Positions 1,633 through 55,193 of a DNA stretch of 64,000 bases are shown here, piece by piece. A program made the translations under genes and the position numbers. The DNA is from Thermoanaerobaculia bacterium. Its GTDB lineage: Bacteria; Acidobacteriota; Thermoanaerobaculia; Multivoradales; JAIOJS01. Location of the stretch: assembly GCA_030429235.1 (NCBI GenBank), contig JAUIDB010000004.1:124001-188000 (forward strand). Reading direction: 5' to 3'. Numbering within the stretch: position 1 is the stretch's first letter; the number at the start of each line of letters is the position of its first letter. The notes under the pieces were generated by a model. That model was not told where the DNA came from. It worked only from the letters and a program-made list of their open reading frames with translations, and did no database searches.

Positions 1633-2981
1633 CCGAAGGCGACTTCCCAGGACCCGAACGACGAGCCCACGCTCGGTTTCCACTGCGGGGCCGGGTCCAG
1701 GTGGAGTTCGAGCAGCGCCGGTACTTTCTGACCGAAAACGTGGTCGCGGCTTCGGCCGGCGGTTTCTACGTGCAGTCGGAGCAGCCGGCCAGCGCGGGAG
1801 AGCGCATCACCTTCGATCTCAGAATGACCAGTGAAGGTCCCGTCTTCAGCGGTACGGGGGAGGTGTCGTGGGTTCGCGCCGAACCCGAAGACGGGTTCGT
1901 CCCCGGCTTCGGTGTCAGTTTCATCCGACTGGAGCCCCAGGGCGCCCAACTGCTGTTGGATCTGTCCGACGCCTTCGACCAGGGCGGAGAGGAGGCTTTG
2001 CTGCATCGCCTGGACGAGGCGGTCGCGGTCTGGAAGGCCGGACAGTTGGACGACACGGCCACCTCGGGTCCGATGGAAGACACCGAGACCCTGCTCAAGG
2101 ACACCACCGAGATGCAGCCCCTGCCGATGGACGACGCGGACACCGATCCGCTCATCCTCGCGCCCAATGGTGAGGAGGTACCGGTCTCGGACACTGCGGA
2201 AGAAGCGATCGACGAGCCAGAGCCCGCGGCCGAGGGGGACGAGGAGGCGGGAGACACCCTGGAGATCGGAGCCGAGGAGCGAGACGCCGACGAGACGGCA
2301 CCGGCCGCCACCTCCGGCCGGGACCTGTTGGGCGATGGGGACGTGCTCTCGAAGACGCTCGATCTGGGCGACGCGCGCTCGGTCCACGCGCTGCGCAACC
2401 CCGGCAAGGACCGACGCCCGGTCCCCATCTGGCCCGTGCTCCTGACCGCCGGCCTCCTGGTCGGAGGGATCCTCTGGATCACATCGCCGTCGGAGTTGCC
2501 CGCACCAGCGGCGGCGGTGGCGTCAGAACCCTCAGCCAGTGAGGGCCCAGAGGCAGCCGCCCCGCAGGCGGCGTCGGAAGTGGTGGGTTCGCCAGACCAG
2601 GAGTCGGCCCCGTTTCAGGGCATCCGAGACATCCGCTGGCGGCGCGACGGCACGGGTCTCCGCATCATCGTAGAGTTCGACGGCGTGCTTCCCGAGAACG
2701 GGTACGCCGTGCATCGCCCCGGGGCGGATCCCCCCCGTGAAGTCGTCCAGATTTTCGGAGTGGTCGCCCCCTATCCAGTCGGGGAGCTGGTGGTCGATGC
2801 CCCAGAACTCGACCGCATTCGCATCGGTCACCACGAGAACAACGGCGACGCCGAAGACCGTATCGTGCTCGATCTCCCGGAACGCGGAGTCCAGCTCCTC
2901 TCGGTCGAAGGCTACTCCGGTGAGCTCCACCTGTTCCTGGAGAGGGCTCGGAACGCCGGGCGCGCCCCCGGGCCCAACTGA
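1629..2981 (+). CDS. PilZ-domain membrane protein with periplasmic AMIN-like domain
   Basis: A 450-residue protein starting at the GTG that overlaps the previous stop. Residues about 8-115 are PilZ-like: RRAHARFPLRG supplies the RxxxR, but the usual D/N of the second motif is A in AASAGGFYV, so cyclic-di-GMP binding is uncertain. Residues 120-255 are acidic and probably disordered. One membrane helix lies at about 262-284 (VLLTAGLLVGGILWI). The C-terminal region (about 320-445) alternates strands like an AMIN domain, which binds peptidoglycan or secretin-associated partners. The architecture suggests a cytoplasm-to-periplasm coupling protein for the envelope module. The stop codon lies inside a 14-bp tandem repeat. 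Confidence 0.65.
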   Translation: MTEGDFPGPERRAHARFPLRGRVQVEFEQRRYFLTENVVAASAGGFYVQSEQPASAGERITFDLRMTSEGPVFSGTGEVSWVRAEPEDGFVPGFGVSFIRLEPQGAQLLLDLSDAFDQGGEEALLHRLDEAVAVWKAGQLDDTATSGPMEDTETLLKDTTEMQPLPMDDADTDPLILAPNGEEVPVSDTAEEAIDEPEPAAEGDEEAGDTLEIGAEERDADETAPAATSGRDLLGDGDVLSKTLDLGDARSVHALRNPGKDRRPVPIWPVLLTAGLLVGGILWITSPSELPAPAAAVASEPSASEGPEAAAPQAASEVVGSPDQESAPFQGIRDIRWRRDGTGLRIIVEFDGVLPENGYAVHRPGADPPREVVQIFGVVAPYPVGELVVDAPELDRIRIGHHENNGDAEDRIVLDLPERGVQLLSVEGYSGELHLFLERARNAGRAPGPN

Positions 2982-3034
2982 CGAGGCCCAACTGACGAGG
3001 CCCAACTGACGGGGCCTAACTGACGGGGCCCAAC
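2971..3034 (+). repeat. 14-bp tandem repeat (about 4.6 copies) spanning a stop codon
   Basis: The unit GGCCCAACTGACGA occurs four times in a row with single-base changes (GA to GG ending, one C to T), followed by a partial copy. The first copy contains the TGA stop of the PilZ/AMIN-like gene. The array fills the gap between the convergent ends of that gene and glgA. Because 14 is not a multiple of 3, copy-number change would shift the frame, but only beyond the first stop. Confidence 0.9.
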
Positions 3035-11347: not shown

Positions 11348-13696
11348 CTAGTTCGGTCGCGAGCGCCGCTGGGGGCGGTCCGACTTCTCCTTGTTGCTGC
11401 TCCGACTCGAGCTCTCCTTGCTGCCCGAGCTGCGGGTCGAACTCTGCTTGCCGGACCGGCGGTCGCCGGAGGTCGCCGAGCGCTCACCGCCCGAGCGGGA
11501 GCTCGATCGGGTCGCCGCCGAGTCCGATCCACTGCGCCGTCGGTCAGGGCTGGAGGTGGTGGAGCGAGCGGGCGGCGCCTGCCGCGGGGCGGGACGCGTC
11601 GTTCGAGGTGTCGCCCTGGTGTCGGCCTGCGGCGCGGTCTGCCGCTGCGGCCGCTCGTAGGTCGAGGAAGGGCGGGCTCGATCCGTAGAGCGCCCTCCGC
11701 TGGACGGGCTGACCCGGCGGGGGGCGGTGGCTCGCACCCCAGAGTCACTCTGCGACGTGACCCGTCGACCGGAGGCCCCATCCGTCTCGCGCGTACTGCC
11801 CTCCCGGGACGCCGGCCTCGAACCTTCGACTACCCGACGTACGATCTCCCGGTCGCGCGACGGCGAGCGCGGTGAGGTCGTGGCGCGCCCACGATCTCTG
11901 GGTGGCTGCGACCGCGTCGCGGTCGGACGCTCCTCGCGCTCGTCACCCGATCGCTGGACGCGTCGGCTGGTGGTAGCGGAGCGGTCGCCGTCGGTTCGGA
12001 CACCGCCACCCGTGGCCGATCGAACGCGTCGGGGGCTGTCGGTGGAGCGCGTCGCGGAGGGCGAACCCTCGCGGCTGCGATCCTCGACCCGGGCGCCACC
12101 GCCCGTCACCCGCTCTACGCTACGGCGGTCGCCACGACTCCCGACGGCGCGCGGCGTGTCGGTCCTCTCGCCGGTGCGATCGGTGGGCCGAACGCTTCGT
12201 CGTTCGCTCCGATCGGATCCGGTGGTCGACACGCGTGGCGGCTCGCCACTGCGGTCCGTCCGGCCCCGCGTGCCCGCCGCGCGCCCGCCGTCGGCCCGAT
12301 CGTCCGCCACCGGCATCGCCACCCGCACGATCTCGCTGCGCGTATCGCGGCGCGCCACGAAGTCGGTGAGATCCGGCAGGTTGCGCTGAGCTCGCCGCCC
12401 GTCGCGATCGGTGTGGTGCTCCAGAACCTCGATCGCCGACCGCGGCTGGCGAACCGTTTCCGGCCGGAGGCCGCGGGTATCGGTCGTGATCAAGCCGCGC
12501 GGGATCACATCGCTGCGCGAGCGTCCCACGTACTCGTGGCCACGACGCAGGTGGCGGCGGAGGTGCCGATCGTAGACCCGGTCGGAACCGACGAAGGTCC
12601 AGTACTGGTAGTCCCGATGGTGGCCGCCAGCCCAACCGTAGACCCCGACTCGCAAGCGCAGGTTGTGGTGGGAGCGACCGTAGTGGTGCCGCCCGTAGTA
12701 GCGGGTGTAGTAGCCGGTAGGACACCAACCCACGCGGTCAGTTCCCCAGTACCAGTAGACCCAGGCCGGGCGGTAGATGCGACCGGGGTACCAGACCCAG
12801 CCGTAGCGCTGGTGTCGATCCCAGGTGCCGTAGTGGTGCGGCACCCAGCCCCAGGGCTCGTAGGAGACCCAGGTCATACCGCTCGGGGTATAGACCCAGC
12901 GACCGTCCCGGTATGGGGCCCAATCGATGCTGACCCGAGGGCGCCAGAAGGAAACGCTCGACTCGACGTGCCAGCTACCATGGCGCTGGAGCGACGCACT
13001 CGCGTAGCGGAGACTGCGATCCACCTCCGGCCCACCGTAGCCACCGGCGGCCAGGCGGTCGAGTTCGGCTCCCCAGCGCTCGAGGGAATCGCTTCCACCC
13101 GCCCAGTCGATACGAACTCGAGGACGGTCGAGGCCAGTGATCGATGCCCGCTCGCGCTGCCGCACGAGGCTACTGTCGTCGCGGGTGAGGAGTTCGGCCG
13201 AACCCTCGCGCACCGTGACGGTGGATACGTACCCTCGGCTCTCCAGCCGATAGGTACCGGGCTCGACGAGATAGATGGTGCTGTTGGGAGTGTCGACCCG
13301 AGTCTGCGCCGCGCCGACCGCGTCGTGCGGCACGGTGACCAATATCTCGCCCTTGTCGAGGTAGAGCAGAGTACCGTCGCTCGAATGGTCCGCCGCGAAG
13401 GCCAACCGATCGAACGCCAACACCGTGTTGCCGTCGACCCGGACCAGGGTGGAGTCGGGAAGAATCGCCTCGACGCGACTGCCGTACGAGGTCCAGAGCT
13501 GGTCGCCGGTCATCAGGGGGTAGTTGCTCTCGACTTCACTCCGCTCTCCGTCCTGGGTGACGGTGGCCGAGCCTTCGACGACGCTGAAGTAACCGTAGCG
13601 GCCTTCATCGTCGGCCAGAACTGGCGACGAGAGGATCAGTCCGGCGGCCAACGCCAGACCCAGAAGGCGTTTGGGGTGGGTGGTGTGTCGTGCCAT
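11348..13696 (-). CDS. Secreted FecR/DUF6600-type protein with a long Arg/Ser-rich disordered tail
   Basis: A 782-residue protein. A signal peptide (LLGLALAAGLILSSPVLA) precedes a FecR-like beta domain (about 35-200: EGSATVTQDGERSEV, ALLPDSTL-type strands, DTPNSTIYLVEPGTYRL). Residues about 250-400 are very aromatic with repeated Trp/Tyr motifs (WVSYEPWGWVPHHYGTWD, YWYWGTDRVGW), the pattern of DUF6600. From about 410 to the end the protein is an Arg/Ser/Thr/Gly-rich low-complexity tail with strongly positive charge. It has a good ribosome site (AAGGAG) before the ATG. Function is unknown; location is probably periplasmic or surface. The opposite strand carries a long open shadow frame caused by the high GC content. 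Confidence 0.8.
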   Translation of the reverse strand: MARHTTHPKRLLGLALAAGLILSSPVLADDEGRYGYFSVVEGSATVTQDGERSEVESNYPLMTGDQLWTSYGSRVEAILPDSTLVRVDGNTVLAFDRLAFAADHSSDGTLLYLDKGEILVTVPHDAVGAAQTRVDTPNSTIYLVEPGTYRLESRGYVSTVTVREGSAELLTRDDSSLVRQRERASITGLDRPRVRIDWAGGSDSLERWGAELDRLAAGGYGGPEVDRSLRYASASLQRHGSWHVESSVSFWRPRVSIDWAPYRDGRWVYTPSGMTWVSYEPWGWVPHHYGTWDRHQRYGWVWYPGRIYRPAWVYWYWGTDRVGWCPTGYYTRYYGRHHYGRSHHNLRLRVGVYGWAGGHHRDYQYWTFVGSDRVYDRHLRRHLRRGHEYVGRSRSDVIPRGLITTDTRGLRPETVRQPRSAIEVLEHHTDRDGRRAQRNLPDLTDFVARRDTRSEIVRVAMPVADDRADGGRAAGTRGRTDRSGEPPRVSTTGSDRSERRSVRPTDRTGERTDTPRAVGSRGDRRSVERVTGGGARVEDRSREGSPSATRSTDSPRRVRSATGGGVRTDGDRSATTSRRVQRSGDEREERPTATRSQPPRDRGRATTSPRSPSRDREIVRRVVEGSRPASREGSTRETDGASGRRVTSQSDSGVRATAPRRVSPSSGGRSTDRARPSSTYERPQRQTAPQADTRATPRTTRPAPRQAPPARSTTSSPDRRRSGSDSAATRSSSRSGGERSATSGDRRSGKQSSTRSSGSKESSSRSSNKEKSDRPQRRSRPN

Positions 13697-13901
13697 GTTC
13701 GTTCTCCTTGATTCTCACCCCAGCACCGGGGCACCAACCTCTAAAGCAACTCGGATGCCAACCCGCAGAAGCCCCAGTTTCCTTGCATCTTGTCCATCGC
13801 ACCCGCGACGGAGTTGGGCTATACTTCGCCTCCTAATACGTCCGACCGTCACCTTGAGAGGTCGATTTCGTCCCGGGTGAGAAGGGAGAGGAGGAACCCG
13901 C

Positions 13902-21925: not shown

Positions 21926-21979
21926 GTCACCAGGCCGAAGTGTCACCAAGCCGTAGTGTCACCAAGCCGTAGTGTCACC
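21926..21979 (-). repeat. 16-bp tandem repeat duplicating the end of the glycosidase gene
   Basis: Units GTCACCAAGCCGTAGT at 21942 and 21958, a diverged copy at 21926 and a partial copy at 21974. On the minus strand the unit reads through the codons for GDTTAW and the TGA stop of the GH44-type gene, so the extra copies lie just after the stop. The unit length is not a multiple of three. Confidence 0.85.
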
Positions 21980-24234: not shown

Positions 24235-24319
24235 GCCGGAGTGGCGAAATGGTATACGCAGAGGACTTAAAATCCTCCGGGCATTGCCCTTGCGGGTTCG
24301 AGTCCCGCCTCCGGTACCA
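24235..24319 (+). tRNA. tRNA-Leu(UAA)
   Basis: A class II tRNA with a long variable arm. Acceptor GCCGGAG pairs with CTCCGGT (one G-U), the anticodon loop is ACTTAAA with anticodon TAA, T-loop GGTTCGAGTCC, CCA encoded. 85 nt. A TACAAT -10 lies at 24221-24226. Its 3' 16 bases before the terminal T are repeated in antisense four times immediately downstream. Confidence 0.97.
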
Positions 24320-24321
24320 AG

Positions 24322-24681
24322 CGCAGAATGCGCTTGGAGCCGGAGGCGGGACTCGGAAGGACTACCCGCCGTTCGGCGGCTAGTCCGAGCGAGTCTGATC
24401 ACGACGCAGACCGCAGAATGCGCTTGGAGCCGGAGGCGGGACTCGGAGGAACCTTCCGCCATTCGGCGGCTAGTCCGAGCGAGTCTGATCACGACGCAGA
24501 CCGCAGAAATGCGCTTGGAGCCGGAGGCGGGACTCGGAGGAACCTGCCGCCATTCGGCGGCTAGTCCGAGCGAGTCTGATCACGACGCAGACCGCAGAAA
24601 TGCGCTTAGAGCCGGAGGCGGGACTCGGAAGGACCAACCCGCCATTCGGCGGTAGGGCCGACCGAGTCCTGGTCACGGCAC
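24322..24681 (+). repeat. Tandem array of four 90-91-bp units carrying antisense tRNA-Leu 3' sequence
   Basis: Units begin at 24322, 24412, 24502 and 24593; the last is diverged. Each carries an exact 16-base antisense copy (CCGGAGGCGGGACTCG at 24340, 24430, 24521 and 24612) of tRNA-Leu positions 24299-24314. Each unit has a further hairpin (CCGCC-ATT-CGGCGG type, flanked by GGACT/AGTCC). The first copy and the tRNA end form a 57-base hairpin (24299-24355). Open frames through the array are repetitive artefacts. Confidence 0.93.
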
Positions 24682-54062: not shown

Positions 54063-54725
54063 GTGCCCCACGACTCCACCTCCACCGACCCTGCGCCGAC
54101 GTTCCACCCCAGGGGAGCGGAGACCCAGGAGACGACGCGACCTTCGGCCGATTGGTCCAGTGCGCTCCCCGTCGGCCTGGGACTGCTCCTGCTCACCCTG
54201 GCCCTGGCCGCGAGTTGGACGACGCTCTTGCCGTCATCGACCCCCTACGCTCGGCCCTCGACGAACTCCAGCGAGCCCCCCCGCGACTTAGCCCATCGCG
54301 ACCTGCTCCTTCCGGTCGAGGGTGTCACGGCCGAGGATCTCGACGACTCGTTCACCGACGCCCGTAGCGGCGGCCGCACCCACGAAGCACTCGACATCAT
54401 GGCCGCACGCGGTACCCCCGTCCTGGCCGTCGAGGACGGTTCCATCACCCGCCTCCACGTCGGCGAACGCGGCGGAATCGCCGTCTACCAACTGGGTCCG
54501 GAACAGCGCTACATCTACTACTACGCACACCTCAACGGCTACAGCCCCGGCCTCGAGGCCGGCCAGTCCGTCGCACGAGGCCAGGTCCTCGGCTACGTCG
54601 GCAGCACCGGCAACGCCCCCGACGACGCCCCCCACCTCCACTTCGCCATCTACCGAATCGACCACGCCGACCGCTGGTGGGACGGAGACCCCGTCAACCC
54701 CTTCCCCCTCTGGGCCGGTCCCTAG
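54063..54725 (+). CDS. Membrane-anchored M23 (LytM-type) peptidase
   Basis: A 220-residue protein with GTG start. One membrane helix lies at about 37-54 (VGLGLLLLTLALAASW). The M23 domain has GGRTHEALDIMAARG (His and Asp ligands), YYYAHLNGY and PHLHFAIYRI (HxH). All zinc ligands are present. Unlike the left-edge peptidase it is short and monocistronic. It ends 65 bases before the tRNA-Leu(CAA) repeat array. Confidence 0.9.
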   Translation: MPHDSTSTDPAPTFHPRGAETQETTRPSADWSSALPVGLGLLLLTLALAASWTTLLPSSTPYARPSTNSSEPPRDLAHRDLLLPVEGVTAEDLDDSFTDARSGGRTHEALDIMAARGTPVLAVEDGSITRLHVGERGGIAVYQLGPEQRYIYYYAHLNGYSPGLEAGQSVARGQVLGYVGSTGNAPDDAPHLHFAIYRIDHADRWWDGDPVNPFPLWAGP

Positions 54726-54789
54726 CCGGCGCCAGCCACCCAGAAGTCGAGGGCACTTGGAACACCGGCCGGCTCCGTCTGCGACGCTC

Positions 54790-55092
54790 CACTCAGCGAG
54801 CAGGTTGGTGGGGCAAGGGGAGTCGCTCCGAGCAGTCCTCCCTAGGAAGGGGTGCGAGTACCGGCCTCCCACCTCCGTCACAAGGCGCCCCACTCAGCGA
54901 GCCGGTCGGTGGGGCAGGGGGAGTCGCTCCGAGCAGTCCTTCCGAAGGAAGGAGTGCGACCGCCGACTCCCACCTCCGTCTCTAAGCGCGCCACTCAGCG
55001 AGCCGGTCGGTGGGGCAAGAGGGAGTCGCTCCGAGCAGTCCTTCCGAAGGAAGGAGTGCGACCGCCGACTCCCACCTCCGTCCCCAAACGCC
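54790..55092 (-). repeat. Tandem array of three 101-102-bp units carrying antisense tRNA-Leu(CAA) 3' sequence
   Basis: Units start (plus strand) at 54790, 54891 and 54992. Relative to the minus-strand tRNA-Leu they lie 3' of it, and each carries an antisense copy of its T-arm/acceptor: exact 15-base copies at 55066-55080 and 54964-54978, a 12-base match at 54866-54877. Each unit also has the hairpin GTCCTTCC-GAA-GGAAGGA (diverged in the distal unit). Sequence differs from the array at 24322, but the design is the same. Confidence 0.92.
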
Positions 55093-55107
55093 CGCACAGC
55101 GGGCGAT

Positions 55108-55193
55108 TGGTGCCGGAGGTGGGAGTCGAACCCACACACCCTAACGGGCGGCGGATTTTGAATCCGCTGCGTCTGCCATTCCGCCACTCCGGC
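55108..55193 (-). tRNA. tRNA-Leu(CAA)
   Basis: A class II tRNA, 86 nt. Acceptor GCCGGAG pairs with CTCCGGC, the anticodon loop is TTCAAAA with anticodon CAA, T-loop GGTTCGACTCC, CCA encoded. Followed on its own strand by the antisense-bearing repeat array. Confidence 0.97.

Follow-up and report, generated by a model that had tools for sequence, protein, structure and literature searches.

A little-known repeat element of one bacterial order appears to use transfer RNA genes as landing sites and, at the same time, as its template. The element lies flush against the CCA of tRNA, tRNA-Sec or tmRNA genes, and its sequence has the order S, tip hairpin, A, core, S′: the tRNA 3′ end from C56 to A76 (S) is followed by a short tip hairpin, an antisense copy of S (A), a core of the form GnGGTCGC-stem-loop-GCTCGnAG and a direct copy of S (S′). 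Both A and S′ begin at C56, placing the junction between T55 and C56. Units of this kind multiply into tandem arrays, and the layout was found at 17 tRNA species and tmRNA within the order.

The window analysed here is a stretch of 64,000 nucleotides from the 4.85 Mb genome of a Thermoanaerobaculia bacterium (G000). Behind its minus-strand tRNA-Leu(CAA) gene (55108–55193) lies a tandem array at 54785–55093, for which Tandem Repeats Finder gave a period of 101, 3.0 copies and 88% matches, in agreement with the three units noted in a preliminary description of this DNA. Along the tRNA strand the order is S, a 21-nt tip hairpin, A, a 37-nt core and a degenerate S′, after which the pattern is repeated. 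S comprises the last 21 nt of the gene (C56–A76; CGACTCCCACCTCCGGCACCA; 55108–55128, on the minus strand like all other features of this array), and the tip hairpin ATCGCCCGC..GCGGGCGTT (55087–55107) stands immediately 3′ of the CCA. The first unit consists of A1 (55066–55086; 19/21 matched), core 1 (55029–55065), in which GCGGTCGC and GCTCGGAG enclose the stem-loop and which is conserved across species and tRNAs, and S′1 (55008–55028; 15/21; first letters CGACTCCC). A2 (54964–54984; 18/21), core 2 (54927–54963) and S′2 (54906–54926; 13/21) form the second unit, and A3 (54862–54882; a score of 16/21 with gaps), core 3 (54826–54861) and S′3 (54805–54825; 12/21) the third. The 15-base antisense match reported for the two nearest units is CGGAGGTGGGAGTCG, an exact reverse complement of the tRNA-Leu(CAA) 3′ arm present on the tRNA strand in units 1 and 2; the antisense segment of unit 3 has diverged. 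In the predicted transcript fold the tRNA end pairs with the nearest A through CCAA/TTGG and CGCCCGC/GCGGGCG, the two inner pairs that had already been named. The fold is more stable than all 100 dinucleotide shuffles (z = −4.2), and the antisense local-alignment score is 32 versus a maximum of 22 in 100 shuffles. A genome search with the array sequence matched its own locus only, which rules out a dispersed repeat. Between the array and a permease-like gene lies a plus-strand open reading frame (54063–54725) that putatively encodes an M23-type peptidase; in the congener G001 the permease-like gene is directly behind tRNA-Leu(CAA). Two short tandem repeats are also present in the window, at 2971–3034 (14-bp unit, 4.6 copies) and 21926–21979 (16-bp unit, 3.4 copies).

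The second host gene of the window, tRNA-Leu(UAA) (24235–24319, plus strand), is followed on the same strand by a tip hairpin (24320–24334), A1 (24335–24355; 19/21) and core 1 (24356–24389), the entire array extending over 24322–24677 (3.9 units of 91 bp by Tandem Repeats Finder). Its antisense local-alignment score is 32 versus a shuffle maximum of 26 (100 shuffles). The antisense segment differs from that of the tRNA-Leu(CAA) array and the overall design is the same. The two arrays had been called independent, which is correct in that they occupy separate leucine loci but not otherwise, since a shared element is shown by three features missed in the preliminary description: a sense (direct) copy, a precise boundary at T55/C56 and a core common to both. 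An antisense scan of the sequence downstream of the tRNA-Gly and tRNA-Cys genes of the window found no array, as had been stated. Whether all leucine or all class II tRNAs carry arrays had been raised as a question, and the answer is no: the element accompanies two of the five leucine tRNAs and is also found at Ala, Pro and Lys tRNAs, tmRNA and tRNA-Sec, so that a leucine-specific or class II-specific feature is rejected.

When tRNA genes were required to reach an antisense score of 25 in the 400 nt that follow them, seven of the 39 in the same genome passed (Lys-UUU, Pro-CGG, Ala-CGC, Ala-GGC, Leu-UAA, Leu-CAA and Ser-GCU), and its tmRNA gene, judged from the 3′ end, also carries the element. 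The corresponding numbers are 8/43 in G025, 2/44 in G032 and 3/37 in G001, a member of the same genus. For the four genomes pooled, 20 of 163 tRNA genes pass downstream at this cut-off, versus one of 163 upstream (tRNA-Ser(CGA) of G025, located behind a neighbouring array) and none of 163 when the downstream sequence is reversed. In other families of the order the element stands behind Arg, Glu, Gly, Tyr, Ser and Lys tRNAs, tRNA-Sec and tmRNA; the tmRNA genes of G025 and G029 were confirmed with Rfam, and the gene end coincides with the element start. In G000 the contigs end within the Pro and Ser arrays, an expected outcome for repeats that interrupt assembly. The tRNA-Pro(CGG) array occurs a second time in this genome (L223, G000:C38, 2014–2077, minus strand), behind a degenerate T-arm with no tRNA gene, and in G025 the tRNA-Arg(UCU) array and tRNA-His are separated by a c-di-GMP-I-GGC riboswitch (RF03167; L117, G025:C34, 1637–1753, minus strand).

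To characterize the element across genomes, 51 first units from 19 genomes were parsed; six were misparsed, and the conservation counts refer to the remaining 45. The left end of the core begins with G in 44/45 units and continues as nGGTCGC or a similar sequence, and the GCTCGnAG-like right end closes with A in 43/45 and G in 41/45, the inner core stem being preserved through changes on either side. All 21 nt of S′ are identical to S in five of the 45 units, namely LysUUU, tmRNA, tRNA-Sec and ArgUCG of G025 and tRNA-Tyr of G031, where CGAATCCATCCACCTCCACCA occurs twice, as S and as S′; such perfect copies are expected if insertion in the T-loop duplicates the tRNA end. An A-core-S′ covariance model trained on 18 units matches 24 of the 72 genomes of the order, with E values down to 5e-15 and some model sequences included among the matches. 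In one of these 24 carriers (G008) the match has no adjoining tRNA. Among 148 genomes of the class, a single match was obtained outside the order (G131), and no tRNA lies beside it. Where inspected copies lacked a called tRNA, most stood behind tmRNA, tRNA-Sec or a degenerate T-arm, or at the end of a contig. A scan of genome contigs returned 57 stretches, of which 13 were counted as the element, all in three Acidobacteriota MAGs (one of them from Thermoanaerobaculia); the remaining 44 have neither a tRNA end nor an A:S match. These results bear on the possibility that the palindromes arose by chance and share no element, replication having slipped and switched template at the native terminator hairpin that follows each tRNA gene. 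Most units do show a short hairpin-like stretch after the CCA and the tandem arrays are homogeneous, both of which would suit such an origin; however, the core is homologous over different tRNAs and families, as the covariance model matches attest, the sequence that precedes C56 is not its source, and the junction is constant. This explanation is already disfavoured and we regard it as very improbable.

The presence of the element varies between close relatives. The tRNA-Leu(CAA) gene of G001 has no element, and G001 carries elements at GluUUC, GluCUC and SerUGA, whereas both tRNA-Glu genes of G000 are free of it; gain or loss is thus quick enough to separate congeners. When the sequences downstream of the tRNA genes of G000 and G001 were aligned, the score exceeded 50 at 16 of 25 element-free tRNAs and, beyond the element and within the stretch compared, at none of seven element-bearing tRNAs. 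At tRNA-Leu(CAA) the break in synteny is only local, because the shared downstream gene reappears about 1.1 kb farther off. Core identity is 0.717 between elements at the same tRNA in other genomes (61 pairs), 0.662 between other tRNAs of the same genome (114 pairs) and 0.639 where neither is shared (1000 pairs), and this comparison shows no recent burst within a single genome. In the genus g3 the GluUUC element is present in nearly all of 21 genomes. The grouping of cores by tRNA and the inheritance of the GluUUC element in g3 indicate that most elements are old and tied to their own tRNA, and that mobility is mostly old. One g3 genome (L359) has at GluUUC the tip hairpin and lacks A, core and S′, a state that can be a loss or an empty site.

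The relation between A and its host tRNA is the central feature to be explained. The preliminary description held that the antisense segments change in step with the tRNA sequences, and the wider comparison bears this out: A best matches its own tRNA in 23 of 26 units, and across species it follows the tRNA for LeuCAA, LysUUU, GluUUC and AlaCGC. The three exceptions are a tie at a tmRNA, a Lys unit for which the sole better match is the same tRNA trimmed differently, and the unit behind a 1.26-kb insert, which does not match. At GluUUC, for example, the tRNA has ..GTTGGGGCT and A reads AGCCCCAAC in G001, and the corresponding sequences in G068 are ..GTTGGGGAC and GTCCCCAAC. A tRNA-Sec pseudogene of G025 bears a two-base lesion (TTCCC to TGACC) that is mirrored in A, while S′ retains the old bases. 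One contig of this genome has a pair of tRNA-Sec-like 3′ ends separated by about 8 kb (L227, G025:C26, 1816–1879 and 10121–10185, minus strand); one has a damaged T-arm and both carry the element.

Complementarity of this kind might reflect selection on a functional RNA, one that serves as a switch, a processing signal or a terminator when A base-pairs with S′ or the tRNA 3′ arm, or one that is released as a regulator of the rtT type. The S-A hairpin is predicted to be very stable, A is matched at 16–21 of 21 positions in 38/45 units, the A of unit 1 matches better than that of unit 2 (27 arrays, p = 0.001, in a scan that included some spurious weak windows), and the persistence of the GluUUC element in g3 also speaks for such a role. 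Selection for RNA pairing should, however, favour those substitutions in A that leave a G-U pair, namely A to G and C to T, and such substitutions are not enriched among the 131 A:S mismatches (10 G-U-preserving changes, 33 pair-breaking transitions and 88 transversions), so that this form of selection was rejected. Furthermore, A tracks the lesion of a pseudogene, presence varies between congeners and most tRNAs are without the element, and in the minimum-energy fold the hairpin pulls the tRNA 3′ arm out of the cloverleaf. We consider a functional RNA unlikely.

The alternative is that A is corrected at the DNA level with the tRNA as template. In seven units with S′ matched at least 20/21, A scores 12–17, versus a median of 19 in the other 42 units (p = 0.0004); the rank correlation between the freshness of S′ and the match of A is weak over all 49 units (ρ = −0.15, p = 0.32) and stronger when the well-sampled genus g3 is left out (ρ = −0.39, p = 0.013), all of these values coming from units that are not independent and from a relation that was sought after individual cases had been noticed. 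A poorer A beside a fresh S′ fits A becoming matched after arrival. In the GluUUC arrays of g3, A retains shared mismatches against an invariant tRNA, which indicates that templated correction is inefficient, and unit 2 of the arrays shows no sign of correction between S′1 and A2. Template switching during DNA replication is reported to create and maintain hairpins (PMC8794818), and inverted-repeat arms are reported to be homogenized (PMC8604942). Taking together the fit of A to its own tRNA, the mirrored pseudogene lesion, the negative G-U test and the poorer A beside an intact S′, we favour, with moderate confidence, DNA-level correction of A templated by the tRNA over selection for RNA pairing. 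Of the two interpretations offered in the preliminary description, function or a tRNA-templated mechanism, it is thus the templating that gains support; function receives no direct support.

A further possibility is that the units are integron-like cassettes, with the T-loop of the tRNA as the attachment site and A-core-S as a folded attC-like site; A would then have to match S because a DNA hairpin has to form. Integron attC arrays likewise comprise folded sites in tandem, with inverted boxes around unpaired spacers, a variable stem and a junction inside one box, all of which recur here, including the constant T55/C56 junction. The R boxes of attC sites are RYYYAAC/GTTRRRY. In contrast, the present boxes are the tRNA sequence GGANTCG/CGANTCC, and almost all units are gene-free. 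No recombinase or other mover was identified among the candidates considered, which comprised integron integrases, Y1 transposases and PF00589 proteins. Integron integrase shows no association with the element, being present in 4/24 carriers and 12/48 non-carriers of the order. PF00589 matches were listed in seven genomes, among which there is no common candidate integrase; none is tied to the element, and the carrier G038 has only two. Genome G000 itself encodes an IntI integrase (TIGR02249, 443.8 bits) in a canonical integron (L330, G000:C73, 10686–11717, minus strand, and 11800–13882), whose attC-like repeats, different from the present element, carry GCCCAAC/GTTGGGC boxes 646 bp apart and whose open reading frame ends in what is presumably a TIR-domain-like stretch.

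Long inserts bear on the same possibility. In G025, 1.26 kb separates tRNA-Arg(UCG) from a core and a perfect 21-nt copy of the tRNA end (L228, G025:C16, 1490–2824, minus strand), as would befit a cassette; no convincing gene was found within this insert, and its A does not match its own tRNA (rank 6 of 40). In G038 a 161-aa SnoaL/DUF4440-like open reading frame is flanked by tRNA-Glu(CUC) and what is left of its array (L240, G038:C262, 490–975, plus strand), and the 0.9-kb segment there looks inserted into an older array. With two long inserts only, one of them better read as an insertion into an array, the reading of the inserts as cargo cassettes was rejected, and we judge an integron-like origin to be improbable. 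A bolder proposal, equally improbable in our estimate, is that the tRNA genes of the order are platforms for single-strand-hairpin recombination, in which the tRNA end and A would form an attC-like site, the units would re-supply the tRNA 3′ end and E. coli tyrT/rtT would be a distant relic.

Among known systems, the closest in arrangement are the repeats of E. coli tyrT/tyrV (rtT/RttR RNA, tpr), which lie directly behind a tRNA and show the same S-A-core-S′ order. To our knowledge, rtT is known from one tRNA locus. In an E. coli K-12 control, tandem 178-bp repeats with direct 3′-end copies were found behind tyrV; the final 19 nt of each of the three units copy the tRNA end from A58 onwards. 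The units carry a 10-nt exact antisense copy, GGGGAAGGAT, and of 5000 shuffles, 6 reached a run of that length. The predicted rttR fold has A:S′ as its outer stem and a free CCA tail. The E. coli repeats differ in their 178-bp unit, a shorter antisense segment, a boundary 2–3 nt later and another core. When the window and nine element loci were searched with cmscan, the units fell in no known Rfam family and gave no rtT match at the gathering score. As judged from sequence, the element is laid out like E. coli rtT but lies outside the Rfam rtT family.

Mobile elements with tyrosine integrases use tRNA and tmRNA genes as att sites and leave a downstream copy of the 3′ end. The present element likewise targets tRNA, tRNA-Sec and tmRNA genes with a junction in the T-loop and has a direct 3′-end copy at its far end, perfect in 5/45 units; it differs in being about 80 bp long, having no integrase or genes and containing an inverted copy of the target. 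REP/BIME palindromes are dispersed in intergenic regions and linked to RAYT transposases. They resemble the present element in their tandem palindromes and in a GGAG/GTAG-like foot ahead of the hairpin, whereas the present element is confined to tRNA and tmRNA ends. Y1 transposases occur in most genomes, but Y1_Tnp is absent from eight carriers and shows no association with the element, and REP/RAYT was rejected as the mover. One paper links rtT-like sequences to BIMEs (PMC2965389). The literature passages searched contain no description of the antisense half of tyrT-type repeats, and no description of the present element was found in the largely open-access literature searched.

The explanation that we propose, and to which we give about even credence, is that the arrays are a family of short non-coding, tRNA-anchored palindromic repeats that originate in the T-loop, grow into arrays and have their A rewritten from a template. 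Site-specific insertion or duplication in the T-loop would copy the 21-nt tRNA end and yield the first unit, and ordinary unequal exchange or slippage would enlarge the arrays. Template switching across the hairpin (quasipalindrome correction) would then rewrite A from the tRNA; through this step, which we infer, A would track its tRNA without selection at the RNA level. If E. coli rtT is a guide, small RNAs may be released from read-through transcripts, and their A:S′ hairpin would mimic a CCA-ended acceptor/T minihelix. The proposed explanation requires no function of the element in the cell. A second type of repeat was observed at tRNA-Leu(CAA) of genus g3 (L156, G032:C6:1590905–1592387; also L068 and L070), where tandem 91-bp units consist of 51 nt of sense-strand tRNA 3′ sequence, copied from within the variable arm onwards, and a 40-nt insert containing a hairpin made of anticodon-stem sequence; in this order, tRNA-end duplication is thus not confined to the T-loop type.

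The E. coli tyrT repeats, a long-known curiosity, become one example of a recurrent layout. Because constraint falls on the tRNA arm and spares the antisense arm, the loci offer a natural test of template switching versus selection, a distinction that matters wherever covariation is read as proof of RNA structure. For the genomes that carry them, the elements break contigs at tRNA genes and duplicate tRNA ends, and annotation can be misled.
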